21,275 nt of DNA from a virus: positions 1 through 21,275 of the IMG/VR virus record IMGVR_UViG_3300006919_000568. One strand, 5' to 3'. Below, piece by piece: positions 9,840 through 21,275 of the stretch; within the stretch, counting starts at the first letter, position 1, and every line of letters begins with the position of its first letter. The translations under genes and the position numbers were made by a program. Below the pieces are notes generated by a model. It did no database searches. It saw only the letters and a list, made by a program, of their open reading frames with translations, and had not been told where the DNA came from.

Positions 9840-12800
9840 ATGGCAGAAGTAAGAAATGTATTTGTCAAGTCTAAAATGAATAAAGACTTAGATGAAAGAC
9901 TTTTACCTCCTGGTGAATACAGAGATGGCAGAAATATATCTGTTAATAAAAGTGAAGGTCCTGATGAAGGTGTTGTTGAAAATATTATAGGTAATAATCT
10001 ATATTCTAATTTTAACTTTGGTGCAGACGTAGAAATAATAGGTGCATATGTCGATACTGATAGAGATAGAATATTTATATTTGCCACTAATCATTCTGAC
10101 GGTTCGCCAACTCAATTAGATGCTAGAGCAGTTGGTAATGTAGATACAGTATCAGGAAGATTTACAAAAAGTGCTGTTTGTGTTATAGCATATATAGAAG
10201 GACCTACATCTTCTAATGGCAATGTGCCTAAATTTGATAAACTAGTTGAAGGAGTGTTTTTAAATTTTTCTAAAACGCACCCTATGCTTGGTATAGATAT
10301 GATAGAAGATTTGTTATTTTTTACTGATAATAGAAATCAACCAAGAAAAATAAATGTACAAACAGCAATAGGAGCTTCTGCTACTAGTCCAGAGCCTTAT
10401 TATACAACTGAAGATCATATATCTGTAGCTAAATTTGCTCCTGTAGAGCCTATAAACTTTATACATAAAGTAGGTGGAGCTTGGGTATCTGGTTTAATAG
10501 ATGAAACAAGCGAGTATTTACCTGCTAATTCTACAGGTATATTTAGTTCAGCTGGAACACCTGGTCAAATTATATGTAGTGCTAATATACCTCAGCTAGC
10601 TTCTTCTTTAAATAACACTGTTAGATTTAAAAATTTAAATTTTCCTGAATTAGGTTATTTCTTAATGACAAATTTTACTAGTAATTCACCTGCTACTTTT
10701 ACTTATAAATACCCTATTAATTCTAATAATACAGCTGCTCAATCTTATGCTGCAGCTATAGAGGCTGCAAAAAGTTTTTCTGGGTATGACAATAGCAATA
10801 ATCCCAAAAGATATCCGTTTGCCGCCGGTGATGTGTTACAGTTTGAAAGACAAAACCCTTTGTATGATGCTTCTTATTCAGGTGATAAAGAATATTTAAG
10901 AAATAAATTTGTAAGATTTAGCTATAGGTTTAAATATGACGATGGTGAATACTCTTTGATGGCGCCATTTACTCAACACGCTTTTATACCTAAACAATTT
11001 GGTTATATACTAGACAGTCCATACCAAGCTAGTGGGCCTAACCAAATGAAAAGAGATGAAAAAGACATAGCTGAAAGTGGAATAAATAGATTAATGGAAA
11101 ACCAAGTTACATCGATAAAGCTAAGGTTGCCAATGCCTAATTTAGTAACTGGAGTTCAAGCTCAAAAATCAGTTTTTAAAAAGTTTTTTAAAGTAAAAAC
11201 TATACAAATTTTATTAAAAGAATCTGATGGTTTAGCCATCAAAGTAGTAGACGAGATAGATGTGAATGATGTAAACGGCACTGATAAGTTTTATGAGTAT
11301 GATTATAAATCTGAAAAACCGTTTAAAGTTTTACCAGATGCAGACGCTACTAGAGTTCATGATAAAGTACCTATAAGAGCTTTAGCTCAAGCTGTTAGTG
11401 GTAATAGAGTTATATATGGTAATTTTATAGAGAAAAACGAATCACCTGACTTCTTACAATTTGATATAAGTGTAACGGATAAACCTGATAATACAGCTAC
11501 TGTGTTTGATCAAAAAGAATATCCTAACCACACTTTAAAGCAAAATAGATCTTATAAAGTTGGTGTAGTATTAGTTGATAGATATGGTAGGTCTTCTAAC
11601 GTTATATTAAGAAAGCCTAATTCTTCTGTGTCTATTGGTGGTGAATCATCTTCTATATATGCTCCATATGAAAACTTAACTAATGGCACTTTAAACTGGC
11701 CGGGTAATAATTTAAATATATTATTTAACAACACAATACCAGTAAATAAAACAAGTACTTATCCAGGTATTTTTTCAATAAATAACCCTTTAGGGTATTA
11801 TAGTTATAAAGTAGTTGTACAACAAAAAGAACAAGAGTATTATAATGTATACGTGCCTGGTGCATGTTCTGGAAAAATAACTTTTAAAGGTGAAGCTGGA
11901 ACACAAACTAATTTTCCAACATACCCAAGAGCTAATACCACTACAAATATAGTATTATACGGAGATAATATAAACAAAGTTCCAAAAGAACTAGCTGATG
12001 TTGGTCCAACTGAAGAAATATATGGTAGTGAAACTTTACTTTATCCTAGAGTAGCTACTAGATATATAGTAAACGCTAGTAACAATCCTACAGCTTACAA
12101 ACCAGCTTTATCAAGTTCTGAATCTTCTCAAATAAGAGAACTTAATGAATTCACTGTAAGTTCAATAATGTCTTTTAATGACTTAGGCGCTTGGGTTGGT
12201 GATAGAAATAAAGCTCCAAGTGGTTCTTCATATCCTCACGATGGAACAAACTACATAGATCCATTATATTTAGAAGGTTCACATAACCCATTTGTTGCTC
12301 AATTAGCTACTAATTTTTTAGTAGGTTTTGCACCAGCAACTCAAGAAGGAATACAACAAGGCAATACTCAATTACCACCTAGTTTTTCTAAAAATTTAAA
12401 TGTTTTTGAAACAGATCCTGTAGTGTCTAAAATAGATATATTTTGGGAAAGTAGTTCTGCTGGACTTATATCTGATTTAAATAGCGAAATAGAAAGTGGT
12501 ACAGCTGGACTACCTGTAGGTATAAGTGAACCTAACTTTAACATGTTAGAATCTTTAACTCCAGGTGTAAGTGCTTGGGTTTCAAATACATTTGATATAA
12601 TTGACGATACTGGTAGTGCTATAGCGGGTGCTACAGCTACCATGGAAGTAACTAACGGTAATAACTCTGTTGTAAACATATTTGAACTAGAAGAAAGCCC
12701 AGCCGCTCCTTCTTATAGAATTAGATATAATCCTACTGATGCTAGTATTTATTATGGTTCTGATGCTAATTTTAGAACTTTTAATTTTAAAATAACATCA

Positions 12801-13328
12801 ACTAATTCAAGTGGTGCTATAAATGTTTCTAATCATGAAATGCTACTGAGCAATGTTGCTCCTACTTTTACCATACCTACAAATGGTGTTGGTACAAAAG
12901 CATATTTATATCCAGGTGAAAGCGGCTTTCCATCAGGACAACAAGGAGCTATTGACAATCCATTTCCTATATTTACTTTTAATCCTTCAGCTAGTAATCC
13001 TCAACCTGGATCATCACTAGGTAGTTTTAATATGTTCACTGATATAGTTAATGGTAGTGGAAGTACTGTAGGAAACGTTAACACAGAGGAAACAGTTTTA
13101 GTTCAAGATGGCTCTGTAGCTTCTAGAGTTTTGTTTCAATTATCTACAGTAACACCAATAACTACTATAAAAGTTACTTCAAGTTTGAATGACTTGCAAT
13201 ATTACGGTAGTAGAAATGACGATACAGGAGCACCAGGCGTGGGTATATATTTATTAAAAGTTTATGCTGTTGATGCTAATCCTATAGGTATTAAAACATT
13301 TTATTCTGCATATTTTCAAATACAATAA
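9840..13328 (+). CDS. Large tail nozzle/muzzle protein, N-terminal part
   Basis: Probable main protein of the distal tail tube (nozzle or muzzle) through which DNA leaves. The N-terminus, with KMNKDLDERLLPPGEYRDGR at about 13-32 followed by a GVVENIIGNN segment, is the signature of nozzle-type proteins in crAss-like phages and loosely recalls T7 gp12. Repeated beta-strand blocks follow, such as DRDRIFIFATNH near 74-85 and FFTDNRNQPRKIN near 158-170. FVRFSYRFKYDDGEYSLMAP near 356-375 is also typical. The last ~260 residues (about 900-1162) are Ser/Thr/Gly/Asn-rich beta sequence resembling Ig- or cadherin-like domains and may be exposed. The stop region reads TAATAATGG, where the second stop overlaps the next gene's ATG. 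The fold is inferred, not computed. Confidence 0.75.
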   Translation: MAEVRNVFVKSKMNKDLDERLLPPGEYRDGRNISVNKSEGPDEGVVENIIGNNLYSNFNFGADVEIIGAYVDTDRDRIFIFATNHSDGSPTQLDARAVGNVDTVSGRFTKSAVCVIAYIEGPTSSNGNVPKFDKLVEGVFLNFSKTHPMLGIDMIEDLLFFTDNRNQPRKINVQTAIGASATSPEPYYTTEDHISVAKFAPVEPINFIHKVGGAWVSGLIDETSEYLPANSTGIFSSAGTPGQIICSANIPQLASSLNNTVRFKNLNFPELGYFLMTNFTSNSPATFTYKYPINSNNTAAQSYAAAIEAAKSFSGYDNSNNPKRYPFAAGDVLQFERQNPLYDASYSGDKEYLRNKFVRFSYRFKYDDGEYSLMAPFTQHAFIPKQFGYILDSPYQASGPNQMKRDEKDIAESGINRLMENQVTSIKLRLPMPNLVTGVQAQKSVFKKFFKVKTIQILLKESDGLAIKVVDEIDVNDVNGTDKFYEYDYKSEKPFKVLPDADATRVHDKVPIRALAQAVSGNRVIYGNFIEKNESPDFLQFDISVTDKPDNTATVFDQKEYPNHTLKQNRSYKVGVVLVDRYGRSSNVILRKPNSSVSIGGESSSIYAPYENLTNGTLNWPGNNLNILFNNTIPVNKTSTYPGIFSINNPLGYYSYKVVVQQKEQEYYNVYVPGACSGKITFKGEAGTQTNFPTYPRANTTTNIVLYGDNINKVPKELADVGPTEEIYGSETLLYPRVATRYIVNASNNPTAYKPALSSSESSQIRELNEFTVSSIMSFNDLGAWVGDRNKAPSGSSYPHDGTNYIDPLYLEGSHNPFVAQLATNFLVGFAPATQEGIQQGNTQLPPSFSKNLNVFETDPVVSKIDIFWESSSAGLISDLNSEIESGTAGLPVGISEPNFNMLESLTPGVSAWVSNTFDIIDDTGSAIAGATATMEVTNGNNSVVNIFELEESPAAPSYRIRYNPTDASIYYGSDANFRTFNFKITSTNSSGAINVSNHEMLLSNVAPTFTIPTNGVGTKAYLYPGESGFPSGQQGAIDNPFPIFTFNPSASNPQPGSSLGSFNMFTDIVNGSGSTVGNVNTEETVLVQDGSVASRVLFQLSTVTPITTIKVTSSLNDLQYYGSRNDDTGAPGVGIYLLKVYAVDANPIGIKTFYSAYFQIQ

Positions 13329-13330
13329 TA

Positions 13331-15124
13331 ATGGGGTATAGATTAAATGTTAAATATTACAACTCTTTTTGGTTAAAGAAAACTATATATGTAGGTAGCT
13401 TGCCTAATCCAACAGCAGGCCAGCCTGATCCAAATAGAGGAGGTTATGGTTCTAATTTTCCAGGGCTGCCATGGAATCCAACAGACTTTCCAACGTTTCC
13501 ATCTGGCGCAGGCGATAGTCAAAATAGTAACTATGATGAAGTAGAAAACTGGTTTATAGAAGAATCAAGGTATCAAGGTGGATTTAACGATGTTTCTACT
13601 GATTATGGTGCGAAAGCTTACTTAAAAGAAGATAATAACTCTCAAGAGTATAGGCCAAATGCTTTGATATACTCAGGTGTTTATAATTCTAGAACTGGAT
13701 TAAACGACACTAATGTATTTTCTGTAGGTGAAGCGATAACTAGAGCTGTTGATCCTCATCAAGGTAGTGTTCAAAAACTTTATGCAGAAGATACTAACTT
13801 AATAGTGTTTCAAGAAGATAAAGTAAATAGAGCTTTAATTGATAAAGATACTTTATATACTTCTGAAGGTGGTACACAGACATTGCCTCAAGGTGTTGTT
13901 ATAGGTCAATTAACTCCATATAAAGGTGAATTTGGTATTAGTAAAAACCCAGAGTCATTTGCTGTATATGGATTTAGAAAATATTTTGCAGATAAAGATA
14001 GAGGTTCTATAATGAGATTATCATATGATGGTATGACAGAAATATCTGAGTATGGTATGTCTAACTTTTTTAGAGATCAATTAAAAAATATAAGTGAGAT
14101 ACAGCAGCCTGTTGATTTTGTTAAAACTTCTAATGGGCAGTTTTCTACGCCAAGTGGTGGTTTACCTGATCCTAAATGGGTTAGATTAACCACATCGTCT
14201 AGTGATGTACCTACAGGCGCTGCTTTAATAGTAGCTGGAATTGAATACCCAACATACGTTACAGCTGTGGAAGCTGACTATGTTTATTTAACTAGTCACT
14301 ATAATGACAATGCTAATAATCCTATAACAAACGGAACTGTTATTACTTTTAGAACTTATATAAAAGATAAAATACAAGGTGCTTGGGATATATATGATAG
14401 AAATTATGTTGTGTCTTTACAGCAAGAATCTCAAAGTGATTATCATACTTTATCTTTTGATGAAAGTGTTTTAGGTTGGCCAACTTTTTATACTTATAGA
14501 CCTGGTGAAATGTTTAGCTTGAAAAATACTTTTTTCTCAACTAACTCAGGTGAAATATATCAGCATTATTTTGAAGGTAGTAGCAATAATAGAAATACAT
14601 TTTATGGTGTCACTTCTAAGTCTTCAATAACATTTGTTTTTAATCCAGCGCCTAATATTAGCAAAAACTTCTTAACGGTAGGTTATGAAGGTAGCAATGG
14701 TTGGCAAGCTGAAAGTTTTATATCTGACTTACAAGGATTACAAGAGGTGCCTAGCAACTATGTTAATCCTAATACAGCTAATCCATCATATGTAAATTAT
14801 AATGATAGTAGTGTAATAGTAAATAGTTACTATGAAGGTGCTTACGATAGCCAAGGAAATGAATATCCTGCAGCATTAACAGAGCCTATATTTAGAGCTG
14901 GTTTCCATTTAAAAGAAGGTAAGTACGTAGCTAACTTAAAAAGTAATAGCTCTACTAGAGCTGGTGAAGTTGTGTTTGGCCCTGATGCTTATGGTGGTTA
15001 TCCAACAAGTGGTATTAAAGGATATGTGGCTACGGTTAAATTATCTACAGACGCTAGTACTAATCCAGGTGGACAAAAACAAATATTCGCAGCCTTCACT
15101 AATCAAGTAACATCGTCTAATTAA
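13331..15124 (+). CDS. Tail nozzle/muzzle protein, probable C-terminal partner of the preceding gene
   Basis: This 597-residue protein probably completes the nozzle. Residues 1-20 are aromatic and basic; residues 22-62 are a Gly/Pro-rich linker (GSLPNPTAGQPDPNRGGYGS and onward). From about 75 on comes a segment I associate with the C-terminal half of long nozzle proteins in related phages: WFIEESRYQGGFN, EAITRAVDPHQGSVQKLYAE, LIVFQEDKVNRALIDKD, and ESFAVYGFRKYFADKDRG with MTEISEYGMSNFFRD. These look like beta-propeller blades. In those phages, as I recall, both halves often lie in one chain; here they are two genes in different frames whose stop and start overlap. Alternatively it is a separate tail protein. 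Ends in TAA; the next gene begins six bases later in the same frame. Confidence 0.65.
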   Translation: MGYRLNVKYYNSFWLKKTIYVGSLPNPTAGQPDPNRGGYGSNFPGLPWNPTDFPTFPSGAGDSQNSNYDEVENWFIEESRYQGGFNDVSTDYGAKAYLKEDNNSQEYRPNALIYSGVYNSRTGLNDTNVFSVGEAITRAVDPHQGSVQKLYAEDTNLIVFQEDKVNRALIDKDTLYTSEGGTQTLPQGVVIGQLTPYKGEFGISKNPESFAVYGFRKYFADKDRGSIMRLSYDGMTEISEYGMSNFFRDQLKNISEIQQPVDFVKTSNGQFSTPSGGLPDPKWVRLTTSSSDVPTGAALIVAGIEYPTYVTAVEADYVYLTSHYNDNANNPITNGTVITFRTYIKDKIQGAWDIYDRNYVVSLQQESQSDYHTLSFDESVLGWPTFYTYRPGEMFSLKNTFFSTNSGEIYQHYFEGSSNNRNTFYGVTSKSSITFVFNPAPNISKNFLTVGYEGSNGWQAESFISDLQGLQEVPSNYVNPNTANPSYVNYNDSSVIVNSYYEGAYDSQGNEYPAALTEPIFRAGFHLKEGKYVANLKSNSSTRAGEVVFGPDAYGGYPTSGIKGYVATVKLSTDASTNPGGQKQIFAAFTNQVTSSN

Positions 15125-15533: not shown

Positions 15534-16220
15534 ATGGCAGTAACAACAAGTTTAGCAATAGCAGCAGGTGTAGCGGCAACTACTAAATTAGTAAATGCAC
15601 AGATGCAGAAAAATGCAGCTAAAGAACAACAAGAACAGCAAGCAACAATAGCTAATGATAAAAAATTAGCTATAGAAGAGCTAGAAAAAAATAGGCAAGA
15701 AGTTATTAATCCGTATGAAAATATGGCTAATGAATTTGAAAATATAGGAGTTGCTACACAAGCTTCTAAGTTTCAAGCTGAAGAAGCTGACATTGCTTTA
15801 GCTAATACTTTAGATACTATAATGCAAACAGGTGGAGGCGCTGGTGGTGCTACTGCTTTAGCAAGAGCTGCTTTAGAATCTAAGCGTGGTATATCTGCTG
15901 ATATACAAAAACAAGAACAAGCTAATAACCAAGCAAGAGCTGAAGGCGCTAATCAAGTTGCTCAATTAAAAGCTCAAGGCGAAGCTTATAAGTTTGAATC
16001 ACAAGAAGCTAGAGATAATGCTCAGTTAAATAGATTACAAGCTCAACAAGATCAAGCACAGTATTTAGAGCAACAAGCTAGAAATGTTAAAGTGGCTGCT
16101 AATCAAGACATGTTAGGTGCTGTTGGAGGTGCTGTAGGCGGTATGTTTGATCCATCAAGCATGGTTAGAGGTGGTAAAACCTTTGGTCAAGACTTAACAG
16201 CAGGTAAAATATTCGGTTAA
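15534..16220 (+). CDS. Internal virion (ejection) protein, small, coiled-coil type
   Basis: Probable protein carried inside the particle and expelled with the DNA, similar in size and character to T7 gp14 or P22 gp7. Of 228 residues, 3-21 are a hydrophobic Ala-rich stretch (VTTSLAIAAGVAATTKLVN) that could insert in a membrane. Residues ~24-60 and ~120-188 are Gln/Ala/Glu-rich helices with coiled-coil character. Between them is a flexible GGGAGGATALARAALESKRG segment at about 99-118, a pattern recurring in such internal proteins. The C-terminus is Gly-rich (GAVGGAVGGMF). It starts one base after the TAA of the GNAT-like gene and is the first of three probable cargo genes. The call rests on composition and position, not on a catalytic motif. 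Confidence 0.65.
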   Translation: MAVTTSLAIAAGVAATTKLVNAQMQKNAAKEQQEQQATIANDKKLAIEELEKNRQEVINPYENMANEFENIGVATQASKFQAEEADIALANTLDTIMQTGGGAGGATALARAALESKRGISADIQKQEQANNQARAEGANQVAQLKAQGEAYKFESQEARDNAQLNRLQAQQDQAQYLEQQARNVKVAANQDMLGAVGGAVGGMFDPSSMVRGGKTFGQDLTAGKIFG

Positions 16221-16230
16221 AATATAAATT

Positions 16231-17877
16231 ATGGCAAAAAGATATTCAGGAGTTAAATACGGCGGTAGTAGAGGCAGAGGTGGTTCATATGAAAATCCAC
16301 AATTAATAACTAACCAGCAGTTCGATGCTTATTTATCTAGTAGACCTAGTGTAGCACAAGAGATGGACCAAATGGTAGCATCTGTAGTTGCTAATAACAA
16401 ATTAGAAAGAGCTAAACAAGAGAAATTATTTGCAGAACAAAATTTAGAGCAAAAAACTATGTTTGATAAAGTAGCTGGTATAAAAGAAACTGGCTATGGT
16501 AATTTTGACAAAAGCATGAATGAGTTTTTTGATGCTCAAACTGAAAAATATTTTAAAATAAAACAAGGCATTAAAGATGGTACAGTTCCTCAGATGGAGG
16601 GTAATAGAGCTTTATCATATTTAAATAATCAAGTAACTCAATTTAAAGATGCTGTTATACCTATAATGGCACAAACAAAAGCTTTAGCTGAGGCATTAAA
16701 AATACCGCCAGGGCAACCAGGTGCTATTAGTTCTAGAGTGCCAACTGCTCAGCAAGAAGTATTATTAGAGCTACAGCAAGGAGGTAATGTGAAGTTAGTT
16801 GATAATGACGGAGAGTTAGTTTTATTTAGACCAGGTGGTGATGGCAAAGAACCAGCTATGGTAAATGTAAATGAATTATTACAACTAGAAAATAGTGGTA
16901 TAAAGTATTTTGAAACAGTACCTGATTTATCTGAATCATTAAAAAGCGTTTATGATAATACTGTAAAGCCTGGAGGTAAAGATAATGCTGATTTAGTAAT
17001 GTTTGAAACTAAAAGAGTAGGAGATCAAGAAGTTACAGTTAAATATATGACGCCTGAGCAAAGACAAAAAGCTGCACAATCAATGGTAAAATCTAATCAG
17101 TTTAAAGGAATACTAGATGATGATACTCGTATGAAGAGTGTTTGGGCTGATATGATGGGTAAAGACACGGATTGGATGGTATTTCCGCCTAATGCAACTG
17201 CTGATCAAATCAAGGCAATGACTCAAAAACAGAGAGATGAAGCTGCTTTATTTTTAGCTAATAAATCTTTAGATGATAATGCTGCTGCAGATGGTGTAGA
17301 AACTATAGTAGGTAGAAAAAAATATGAAGCTCCTAAACCTCAAACATCTGGCACTTCTAAAGAAAATGTTTTAAGACTAGAAACTAAAGAGCAAATAGCA
17401 ACTTATGGAGATGATTATGAGGCTATGACTCTAGAAGCTGACAGTTATGTAGGTAACCCACGAGCTGTTATTGATAGATACGAGTTCTATAGCGGAGGAT
17501 TGAAAGATTATAAAACTAAAGAAGAAATACTAGAAGAAGACCCAGATTTTAAAGATGCTGACAAACTAAAAGATGATAGAATATACTTTGTAGTAGATGA
17601 GGAGGGCAATATAAATCCAAATGTTTATAAAGAAACTTCTAATCTTCAAGACGTAGTTGAAATATTCGCAATAGGTAAAGGTTTAAATGATGCTGCCATA
17701 CAACAATTAAAAAAGAAGTATCCAGTTAAAAAAAGAGTAGTACAACCAAATAACGAAGCACCTAAAGATTATGCGGCTGAAGTAGCTAGCAAAACCACTA
17801 CAACTGAAGATGAAACTAAAAAAGCAACAGGAGCTACATCTGATACTTCTAGATTCCCTTCACCAGGTTTAAAGTAA
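16231..17877 (+). CDS. Internal virion (cargo/ejection) protein, medium
   Basis: Function not firmly recognised. The 548-residue hydrophilic protein begins with a Gly/Arg/Tyr-rich basic tail (residues 1-20, AKRYSGVKYGGSRGRGGSY), possibly contacting DNA. Residues ~40-170 are helical (VASVVANNKLERAKQEKLF and onward). A mixed alpha/beta region covers about 180-340, with QGGNVKLVDNDGELVLFRPG near 190-209. The C-terminal part is charged, with an acidic EEILEEDPDFKDADKLKDD near 430-448, and the last ~45 residues are Thr/Lys/Ala-rich and probably disordered. No membrane segment is apparent. Its place between a small coiled-coil protein and a giant multidomain protein mirrors T7 gp15, hence the cargo call. 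The leader AATATAAATT has no Shine-Dalgarno sequence; ends in TAA. Confidence 0.55.
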   Translation: MAKRYSGVKYGGSRGRGGSYENPQLITNQQFDAYLSSRPSVAQEMDQMVASVVANNKLERAKQEKLFAEQNLEQKTMFDKVAGIKETGYGNFDKSMNEFFDAQTEKYFKIKQGIKDGTVPQMEGNRALSYLNNQVTQFKDAVIPIMAQTKALAEALKIPPGQPGAISSRVPTAQQEVLLELQQGGNVKLVDNDGELVLFRPGGDGKEPAMVNVNELLQLENSGIKYFETVPDLSESLKSVYDNTVKPGGKDNADLVMFETKRVGDQEVTVKYMTPEQRQKAAQSMVKSNQFKGILDDDTRMKSVWADMMGKDTDWMVFPPNATADQIKAMTQKQRDEAALFLANKSLDDNAAADGVETIVGRKKYEAPKPQTSGTSKENVLRLETKEQIATYGDDYEAMTLEADSYVGNPRAVIDRYEFYSGGLKDYKTKEEILEEDPDFKDADKLKDDRIYFVVDEEGNINPNVYKETSNLQDVVEIFAIGKGLNDAAIQQLKKKYPVKKRVVQPNNEAPKDYAAEVASKTTTTEDETKKATGATSDTSRFPSPGLK

Positions 17878-17885
17878 ATTAAATT

Positions 17886-20800
17886 ATGCCAAAAATATAC
17901 ACAATGATGGATTCTACAGGTCAACTGTGGAATAACATTAATGAAGATTTATTACCGCAGTTTATGCAGGATTATCCTGAAGCTACAACAGTAAGCGTTG
18001 AAGATGACGAGCCTGTACAATTAGAGCAACCATCAATTGAAATAGACTCAGATCCTAATAAAAAGTATAGAGATAAATTACAAAAAGATTTATCTGGTTA
18101 TGATCCAGTAAAAGAAATATTAGTTAAAACTTATGAAGATTTACCTACTGAAACTAGGATGAAGTTAACTGATAAAGATGCTAAAATAGCTGCTACAGGT
18201 AATTTGCAAAACATAAGTGATCAAGGTAAAAGAATTATATTAACAGACTATACTTTTCCAAGTGGATGGACAGGTAATAAAGATTTTAATGGTTTTATAG
18301 AAGTTAATAAACAAGCTAAAGAAACTTTTGGATTAGATGAATCATCTGAATATGACTCTAAATTAAATAAATATAATCAAGATCTTAATAACGCTTTACT
18401 TAATGTAAAAGAAGGTGAAATACCTACAAACATATTAGATGGAGATTTAGGTGCTAAAATAGTAGGGCATGAAGAAGAGCAAGTATATAAAACTTTAAAC
18501 AAACTTTATGGTAGTTTTGGTTTTGAGTTTGAAGAAACTGGACTAGGTGACAATATAAAAGTATATGCACCTAATGGTCAGGCAACTGAAATATCTTTAG
18601 ACAACTGGACTAACGCTGGAGACAAAGAGCAAGCAAGTAAGTTAAAAAGTTTTCTAGATTTAAACAAAGGAGAATATAAGCCTAAAAACTTAAAAGAAAT
18701 AGCTACTATAATAGATGGTGATCTAGATGCCGCCGCTATAGAAAAAATAGCAAAAGATAAAGCTGGAGAAGGTGAATGGGACTGGTTAAAAAACTGGTAT
18801 AAAGAAGATAAGCTTTCAGCTGAAACTATAAGAAAATTTGACGCTGCTTACGATGAAGATGTAGTTAAAGAAGAATCTCAAAAACTAAATAATAGTTTAA
18901 TAAGTATAAATAAGCAGATGGCTGAAAATCAAGCTGCTGTTAATACTTATAAAAAAGATGTTGCTTTATTAGAAGATGAAATTAAAAACGGTAATTTAAC
19001 GCCACAAGAGATTGAAGCAAGAAGAACTGCGCTACTTCAAACACAAACAGAATTAGTAAGTACAGGTAATAATATACAGAATATATATGAAAAAGAAATA
19101 AAACCTTTACAAGCTCAACTACAAGTAGTTAATGCTAAGAAATACGTAGTAGAATCTGAAAAAGGAAATATAGCTGGAATAACTGGTAACACTGTTTTAG
19201 GTGTTGTAGATAAAATATCTACTTATTTTAGTTCTGGCATGTTAGCATTGAAAGAAGATGATATAAAAGAATATTGGGAAGGTAACGAAGAACAAGCTAA
19301 AAAAGCTTTACAAAGAGAAGCTAAGTTAGCAATATCTAATATAAAAGATAAATATGGAGCCGACGTTACTAATGAATATGAGCAAGAATTTAATGCTACT
19401 GTATTAGGCGGAGTTTATACTTCTATGGTTGAAATGGGTAGCATGATGTTAGCTGCTGGCTTAACTGGCACAGGACCAGTTGGTTATGGAGCTATGATGG
19501 GATTATCAATTGCTGGTGGTGAAATGGAAGAGATGTTAGGTGAAGATTTTGACGGCCTTTCAATGAAAGAAAGATTTTTATTTGCAACTACTGTAGGTAC
19601 TGTTAATGGTCTTTTAGAAGCAGCAGGTGCTAAGTTTGGTAAAATATTTGGAGGAGGTAAAAACCCAGTAACAAACTATGTTAAGAAAGATGTAGTAGGT
19701 AAAGTATTTAGTAGATTAGCTGGTAAAAACTTTACAAGAGCTGCTATAACTAAAGCCACTGATGAAATAATTAAAGAAGGCGTAGAAACAGGTATATATG
19801 CTTTAGGTAAAGCTGGTTTAAGAGCTGGAATATCTGAAGCTGGAACAGAAGCAGCACAGGAAGTTGCTACTAGAGGCATGAAACAAGTTGTTAACATGTT
19901 GAAAGAAGATGAGGTGTTTGACAAAGCTGCTAATGAAATAACTCTTAGTAACATAACTAGAGCTGGTGCTATGGGATTTTTAGCTGGTGGACCTATTGGA
20001 GTTATATCTGCTGGCAGCAGAGCTGCAAAGTCTAAATCAATTGATAAAATTTCTAATGCTCAATATAAATTAGCTAAAACATTTACTCTTAATCCTGAGT
20101 TTCAGAAAATGTATTCTGAAAATTTACAGCTTAGAGTTTTGGATCCTAATAACTCCATGACTAAAGAAGCTGCTGAAGCTCATTTAAGAGATTTAAAAGA
20201 GCAGGGTGGCATGATGAGAGAGTTGGACGATATGAGTTTAACTATAGAAGGAGAAAAGCAAGCTTTTAAACTGTTAGATAAGAAAAGATCTTTACAAAAA
20301 CAAATTGATAAAGCTACTGATAAAGCTATAGTTAAAAAACAAAGAGAAGATATAACAGCTATAGACAAACAATTAGAAGCTATTAGTTTAGAATATAACT
20401 TTGAAACAGCATTTGAAGCTGGTCTTGAAGTAGCTAGACAAAGAACTTTAGAAAGTGAAAAACAATTTCAAGAGTTTGATAGCTCAGAAGATTTTGAAGC
20501 CAAAATGAAAGAGCTAGGCCAACAAGATGATGCTGGCTTTAGAGGAACTTCTGGTTATATAGATAATGACGGTAATATTTATATAAATAGAGAAGCTGCT
20601 AAAAATCTTAGAGATATTTCAGTTGGACAACATGAACTACTTCACGGTGTGGTTGGTAAACAAATAGGTAATGTGGCTCCTGAAACTGTACAAGGATTTA
20701 AAGATTCCTTAACAAACAAAGAGTTAGAAGTAGTAGAAAAAAGATTAAAAGAAGCTTACGGAGTTACTAACGTAGAAGACGCTAATGCAGAAGAATATTT

Positions 20801-21275
20801 CAATGCTTTAGTTGATGGAGTTGTTAAAGGAGATATTGTATACGACGAGAATGTATTTACTAAAATAGGTAATTTTATAGTTGAAAACATATTAAGACCT
20901 ATGGGATTTTCTAATGCTCAACTAGGCTTTAAAGATGGTAGACAAGTTTATAACTTTGTTAAAGATTATGCTAAGCAATCTAAGCGTATAGCTGAAGGAC
21001 AACAAGAAGGTTTTGAAGGTGAAGTAGGAGATATAGTAGCAGAAGGTACTGCAGGTAGAACTATTGGAGCTAGAAGTGTACAAGATATAAATGCTACTGA
21101 TTTAGCAGCACAGTATAAAGACGGAACTATAGACTCAGATAATATAACTAATTTCATAGAACAATACCACAAGTTAGGATTAAGAGCTATGAAGTTTGAC
21201 ACATCAAAAGGTGATATTGCTAGAGATGAAGCTATAAGTTTTTTAAATAAAGAATTTGAAAGTGTCGTAAGAAAC
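17886..21275 (+). CDS. Giant cargo/polyvalent-type protein with zinc metallopeptidase motif, 3' end missing
   Basis: A single frame stays open for 1130 codons from ATG 17886 to the window edge. Probably an ejected virion protein. Residues 1-325 are hydrophilic. About 328-425 and 760-860 are long Gln/Lys/Glu-rich coiled coils. Residues ~507-550 (TSMVEMGSMMLAAGLTGTG and onward) and ~684-715 (GAMGFLAGGPIGVISAG) are Gly/Ala-rich and hydrophobic, possibly membrane-active. HELLH at 916-920 matches the HExxH zinc site; E969/E970 (NAEEYFNALVDG), about 50 residues later, could supply the third ligand as in gluzincins. The stretch just before, GYIDNDGNIYINREAAKN, resembles the strand preceding the active helix. 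Polyvalent phage proteins and some crAss-like virion proteins are known to carry zincin domains. The target is unknown. It starts nine bases after the preceding stop codon begins, with leader ATTAAATT. Confidence 0.7.
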   Translation, partial: MPKIYTMMDSTGQLWNNINEDLLPQFMQDYPEATTVSVEDDEPVQLEQPSIEIDSDPNKKYRDKLQKDLSGYDPVKEILVKTYEDLPTETRMKLTDKDAKIAATGNLQNISDQGKRIILTDYTFPSGWTGNKDFNGFIEVNKQAKETFGLDESSEYDSKLNKYNQDLNNALLNVKEGEIPTNILDGDLGAKIVGHEEEQVYKTLNKLYGSFGFEFEETGLGDNIKVYAPNGQATEISLDNWTNAGDKEQASKLKSFLDLNKGEYKPKNLKEIATIIDGDLDAAAIEKIAKDKAGEGEWDWLKNWYKEDKLSAETIRKFDAAYDEDVVKEESQKLNNSLISINKQMAENQAAVNTYKKDVALLEDEIKNGNLTPQEIEARRTALLQTQTELVSTGNNIQNIYEKEIKPLQAQLQVVNAKKYVVESEKGNIAGITGNTVLGVVDKISTYFSSGMLALKEDDIKEYWEGNEEQAKKALQREAKLAISNIKDKYGADVTNEYEQEFNATVLGGVYTSMVEMGSMMLAAGLTGTGPVGYGAMMGLSIAGGEMEEMLGEDFDGLSMKERFLFATTVGTVNGLLEAAGAKFGKIFGGGKNPVTNYVKKDVVGKVFSRLAGKNFTRAAITKATDEIIKEGVETGIYALGKAGLRAGISEAGTEAAQEVATRGMKQVVNMLKEDEVFDKAANEITLSNITRAGAMGFLAGGPIGVISAGSRAAKSKSIDKISNAQYKLAKTFTLNPEFQKMYSENLQLRVLDPNNSMTKEAAEAHLRDLKEQGGMMRELDDMSLTIEGEKQAFKLLDKKRSLQKQIDKATDKAIVKKQREDITAIDKQLEAISLEYNFETAFEAGLEVARQRTLESEKQFQEFDSSEDFEAKMKELGQQDDAGFRGTSGYIDNDGNIYINREAAKNLRDISVGQHELLHGVVGKQIGNVAPETVQGFKDSLTNKELEVVEKRLKEAYGVTNVEDANAEEYFNALVDGVVKGDIVYDENVFTKIGNFIVENILRPMGFSNAQLGFKDGRQVYNFVKDYAKQSKRIAEGQQEGFEGEVGDIVAEGTAGRTIGARSVQDINATDLAAQYKDGTIDSDNITNFIEQYHKLGLRAMKFDTSKGDIARDEAISFLNKEFESVVRN

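Follow-up and report, generated by a model that had tools for sequence, protein, structure and literature searches.

A zincin-like peptidase domain in a giant, probably injected cargo protein of a crAss-related podovirus

Polyvalent proteins are injected multidomain phage proteins whose commonest domain is a zincin-like metallopeptidase (MPTase), that of the N4 virion RNA polymerase (vRNAP) included (Iyer et al. 2017, PMC5512222). Both autoproteolysis and effector roles have been proposed for these zincins. N4 vRNAP itself is packaged unprocessed, its zincin-bearing region being needed for encapsidation (PMC5512222), and the HExxH in the zincin region of N4 gp50 was noted in a 2025 structure preprint (PMC12633501). 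A different type of example is P1 DdrB, which is processed, packaged in the head and has a C-terminal metallopeptidase motif (HELGHH at residue 872). Also pertinent, from the perspective of gene order, are the PhicrAss001 proteins gp45, gp46, gp47, gp49 and gp50, large proteins whose genes follow that of the muzzle; they are stored in the capsid and tail and leave before or with the DNA (PMC10172136).

The DNA considered here, termed the window, is the entire 21,275-bp virus record IMGVR_UViG_3300006919_000568. The phage is a marine, crAss-related podovirus, and the window is its structural module as judged from ORFs, Pfam and PHROG matches: terminase, portal, ring-like proteins, a split muzzle-like protein, cargo genes and a giant gene. 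Where the major capsid protein is usually encoded there is a gene for a PHROG virion structural protein, and a weak GNAT candidate is also present. The features relevant to what follows are these.

9840..15124, plus strand: muzzle-like tail protein in two genes (9840-13328 and 13331-15124), both matching phrog_14478, the second also crAss_MUZ_C (E 1.7e-8)
15534..16220, plus strand: 228-aa probable cargo/virion protein, with HMM matches in the phi38:1, Gundel_1, Panino and elemoA loci
16231..17877, plus strand: 548-aa gene directly upstream of the giant (ORF, synteny), a probable second cargo protein by position
17886..21275, plus strand: giant probable cargo/ejection protein, 1,130 residues seen (ORF with ATG at 17886; relatives)
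17886..20432, plus strand: its N-terminal module, residues 1-849 (nucleotide comparisons)
20433..21014, plus strand: zincin-like metallopeptidase domain, about residues 850-1043 (alignments A1 and A2, model, N4 vRNAP zincin match)
20631..20645, plus strand: HELLH, residues 916-920, with predicted zinc ligands H916 and H920 and general base E917
20793..20795, plus strand: E970, predicted third zinc ligand
21126..21275, plus strand: start of a post-zincin domain, residues 1081-1130, related to those of contigs L053, L054 and L059

The giant gene is incomplete, its frame being still open where the window, and with it the contig, stops; complete relatives are about 2,000-3,070 aa. An earlier note, made from the window's letters, had placed HELLH at residues 916-920 of this last gene of more than 1130 residues, and those coordinates are correct. 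HELLH is the only HExxH across the six frames of the window, and NAEEYFNALVDG, in which a glutamate ligand had been sought, begins at residue 967 (nt 20784).

Storage of the giant in the virion and its ejection with the DNA are probable, as argued from gene order and from the virion annotations of cultured relatives. A muzzle gene precedes the giant in 77 of 84 loci, so that the giant has the position after the muzzle gene of Crassvirales cargo, and the 228-aa gene, whose homologues are annotated as structural in cultured phages, is present in 68 of the 84. The giant genes of phi38:1, elemoA and Gundel_1, which come late in the equivalent cluster, carry a structural annotation, though this is annotation only and for phi38:1 was made by similarity to another phage. 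Likeness to the PhicrAss001 cargo is one of size and position, the account of those proteins mentioning no peptidase domain in them (PMC10172136). The cultured relatives have Cellulophaga, Flavobacterium, Tenacibaculum and Maribacter as hosts, and those looked up fall, by their NCBI lineages, outside the formal order Crassvirales. Of these, phi38:1, Gundel_1 and elemoA encode the muzzle-like protein in a single long gene, the window and its relatives in two.

Conservation was counted over 84 non-redundant giants; an IMG/VR scan with the aligned domain had brought up 183 relatives, and 80 of them were retained. H916, E917, H920 and E970 are invariant (84/84), and the D977 position is Asp in 80. 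The spacing from H920 to E970 ranges from 48 to 99 residues among relatives. The earlier note had left the third ligand as E969 or E970; the latter stands, whereas the former is Asp in a number of relatives. Alignments lacking a conserved HELLH were to have counted against the note's reading, and the motif is in fact shared by the homologues. That this conservation is not a product of the search is evident from the 28 of the 84 giants that do not match the search pattern with HExxH and the 34 that do not match the one with the glutamate; giants reached via a muzzle scan involved no selection for the motif. In comparisons with L008, L011 and L012, dN/dS for the zincin is about 0.15, the lowest of the protein, as against 0.23-0.41 upstream, and on this sequence measure the domain is the most constrained part of the giant.

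As the window sequence alone gave no zincin match in Pfam or PHROGs, searches at the family level were needed. PDB sequence profile searches with A1 and A2 yielded nothing usable. The profile of the N4 vRNAP zincin family matches this family with a score of 40.0 (E 1.6e-5). Controls in which the HExxH block was kept and the flanking columns shuffled scored 26.0 +/- 0.7 (maximum 29.6), with 0 of 60 reaching 40, so that the match goes beyond the motif. An AlphaFold model from 59 sequences (pLDDT 84, pTM 0.71) has the element order of a zincin, which together with the invariant residues and the N4 match upholds the suggestion that the segments around HELLH form a zincin core. In domain numbering there are strands at 12-15, 41-43 and 49-52 and helices at 18-27, 64-78 and 119-131. 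HExxH (H916, E917, H920) falls in helix 64-78 and E970 in helix 119-131. The prediction is that H916 and H920 from one helix and E970 from a second hold zinc, with E917 as general base; we infer zinc binding and, with it, catalysis. An earlier model, from 11 sequences, had pLDDT 73 and no meaningful fold match.

Searching the PDB with the 59-sequence model gave no significant fold match, the best of zincin type being PPEP-3 at E 0.83, and this weakens the explanation favored below. Among viral folds two giant phage proteins lead (best E 2.9e-4), and the first 14 matches include a PolyVal protein, large-polyvalent-domain proteins, an IrrE protein, and structural proteins of the Cellulophaga phages phi17:2 and phi14:2. 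M78/IrrE-like membership, taken as a match above the family's curated cut-off, was not borne out: 7 of 59 sequences gave weak M78 matches (best E 6.9e-5) and the window sequence gave none. With the evidence combined, the zincin domain of the giant is genuine and of the polyvalent-protein kind, found here in a phage group new for it.

In common with polyvalent-protein MPTases it has the HExxH helix, the glutamate on the following helix and a three-stranded sheet with an N-terminal helix (the sheet from element order), and is within a very large, probably multidomain phage protein that is probably delivered with the DNA. Differences are the phage group and the junction boxes, sigma-like neighbor domain and cassette exchange of the relatives, dealt with below; also, the window zincin is without the extra Asp three residues after HExxH that is a feature of the MPTases of one widespread phage clade. 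The nearest well-studied counterpart of the giant is N4 vRNAP, with subdomain C1 of gp50 being the homologous zincin by profile and gp50 likewise being a giant virion protein ejected into the cell. However, gp50 carries a T7-like RNA polymerase, and none was detected in the giants scanned. P1 DdrB is much smaller (996 aa), and its motif is HExxxH-like. With Cellulophaga phage phi14:2 (Crassvirales), gp65 is a virion protein by MS/MS annotation and has HEIMH at residue 245; its 1,421 aa are also the length of the phi14:2 structural protein in the viral fold search. There, however, the fold match is weak (probability 0.41), the zincin is near the N-terminus and there is no significant sequence-profile match. 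In the slot where T7 gp16 has a transglycosylase, the earlier note had envisaged a different enzyme. A zincin and not a transglycosylase was indeed found, with no lysozyme or transglycosylase Pfam match in the giants scanned (the window protein being incomplete), but the T7 comparison is a positional analogy only.

Several features of the giants are seen only in relatives, and all of them, i.e. the boxes, the sigma-like domain and the C-terminal region, lie beyond the window's end. In about 40 of the 84 giants, some truncated, the domain directly after the zincin resembles sigma-70 region 2 (e.g. L089:9637-10011 and L056:9490-9867). Against the PDB, its profile ranks 12 sigma factors of RNA polymerase above all other entries (best E 0.003). 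Pfam Sigma70_r2 is matched by 4 of 20 members (best E 9.6e-7), and each of two PHROG sigma families is matched by a single member. The window's last 50 residues are of another post-zincin family, weakly linked to this one; a sigma-like assignment for the window tail was considered and, with a weak profile link (probability 18), is not claimed. A region of about 700 aa is conserved at the C-terminal end of the giants; it was not found in those of cultured relatives. DFDID motifs in some relatives had raised a crAss-type RNA polymerase as a candidate, but Pfam showed no polymerase in L012 or L021, and that reading was given up. The L036 giant has an AAA/zeta-toxin-like kinase domain at residues about 1600-1748 (AAA_33 E 4.7e-15, Zeta_toxin E 1e-9). 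Combination of unrelated domains is displayed by relatives, as zincin with the sigma-70 region 2-like domain and with zeta-toxin/AAA in L036, the window protein being truncated.

A KFSK(S/T) box, possibly a cleavage or docking signal, also recurs at domain joints among the giants of L004-L106, nearly always C-terminal to the zincin. In the giants KFSK was counted in 28 distinct contexts against 2.9 expected, and FSKS in 21 against 1.7. Among 451 structural proteins from the contigs that encode the giants, KFSK, KFSR, KFSL and QFSK each stayed below the four-occurrence counting threshold. Testing was by word counts because unsupervised motif discovery in the linkers was dominated by the zincin tail and downstream homologous domains; the boxes had been spotted by eye and were tested afterwards. 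In complete giants 88 of 90 are after the zincin and 2 before, for which the nominal binomial P of 2e-10 overstates independence, positions being partly orthologous. Three positions are used repeatedly: a little way past the zincin, about 340 residues further on, and near where the conserved C-terminal region begins. A strict box is missing from 12 of 55 complete giants, and no recurrent box was seen in the more distant zincin carriers (the giants of Gundel_1, elemoA, ctfjg026, phi14:2 and N4). The window's own post-zincin linker has no clear box in the 80 residues between the zincin and the window's end. Boxes at domain joints suggest, from sequence, that the zincin may cut the giant into working pieces.

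Over 7.1 kb L012 and L005 share 97% identity, and between the muzzle end and a point just before the giant 93%, but L012 14626-17986 has no nucleotide match to L005, identity resuming thereafter at 92.5%. As the L012 giant starts at 14750 and its zincin ends at about 17915, the mismatch spans giant start to zincin end, and the N-terminal module and zincin have been exchanged as one block. Such a swap between near-identical phages, like the boxes and the sigma-like domain of the relatives, goes beyond what was known before. The window itself is 91% identical to L010 up to 17723, and not beyond.

The giant, probably stored in the virion and ejected alongside the DNA, carries a zincin-like peptidase domain whose likeliest job is processing of the giant itself, a reading given about an even chance. 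The cuts could be made within one molecule or by one copy on another, either at packaging or once in the cell, and would separate the N-terminal module from later domains; in many relatives the freed sigma-70 region 2-like domain could then reach host RNA polymerase. In favor are the travel of the zincin with the N-terminal module, the crossover being just after the zincin, the location of boxes 88:2 after the zincin at repeated joints, with KFSK below threshold in the 451 structural proteins, and the precedents of P1 DdrB and of the autoproteolysis proposal of Iyer et al. (PMC5512222). Against it are the unprocessed packaging of N4 vRNAP, the best-studied homologue (PMC5512222), the 12 of 55 complete giants without a strict box, its lack in distant carriers, and a window that stops before boxes could be seen and whose own linker has no clear one. 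The main rival, possible but less likely, is that the zincin is injected as an effector against a host protein (e.g. of defense, transcription or the envelope), which it would cleave, the giant being mainly a vehicle. Such roles have been proposed for polyvalent zincins (PMC5512222), exchange of the zincin-bearing module as a cassette is expected of a host-interacting part, and some relatives have other likely effector domains, e.g. the kinase-like one of L036; however, no target is indicated and the boxes at the giant's joints are unaccounted for. A more elaborate version of self-processing, rather unlikely as a whole, is a phage-borne polyprotein in which the zincin cuts the boxes near the time of injection and, in many members, frees a sigma-70-like factor, with N-terminal module plus zincin swapped among phages as a host-specific cassette. 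If true, the factor would recruit host RNA polymerase to the incoming genome.

That the zincin acts on other cargo or on head proteins as virions assemble, in the manner of a prohead protease, would fit with its location in the cargo gene cluster, but is improbable given that KFSK is below the counting threshold in the contigs' other structural proteins and that the zincin is within the giant and not in a separate assembly gene. More improbable still is that the domain keeps its fold and zinc site while acting structurally, in packaging or regulation, and not as a protease; the requirement of the N4 zincin region for encapsidation of a protein packaged unprocessed (PMC5512222) is in keeping with this, but invariance of the general base E917 in all 84 is not demanded by structure alone. 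That HELLH arose by chance in a helical protein might have been thought from the lack of a Pfam or PDB sequence match for the window sequence alone and from the first, shallow model, which matched nothing. It is scarcely credible when the composition (5 His and 109 Glu in 1,130 residues) predicts 0.002 HExxH in the giant, and is already contradicted by the four conserved residues, by the N4 match beyond the motif and by the viral fold matches. For self-processing at the boxes, and likewise for packaging in the window phage, we infer from the relatives.

The kind of zincin is already known; what is new, as far as the literature shows, is to find it together with junction boxes, cassette exchange and a sigma-like partner, though an earlier crAss-like account is possible. 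Substrates of polyvalent zincins have so far only been proposed (PMC5512222), and the box at domain joints is a concrete candidate for one. A sigma-like domain beside a protease is a possible reason for processing. The setting is that of largely uncultured marine relatives of crAss-like phages.

Other variation is also present among these relatives. L012:7176-11099 is a second variable block with respect to L005, comprising most of the muzzle genes and perhaps tied to host recognition, and the 3,859-aa giant of L026 (ctfjg026) has two HEFGH motifs, at residues 1615 and 2500.
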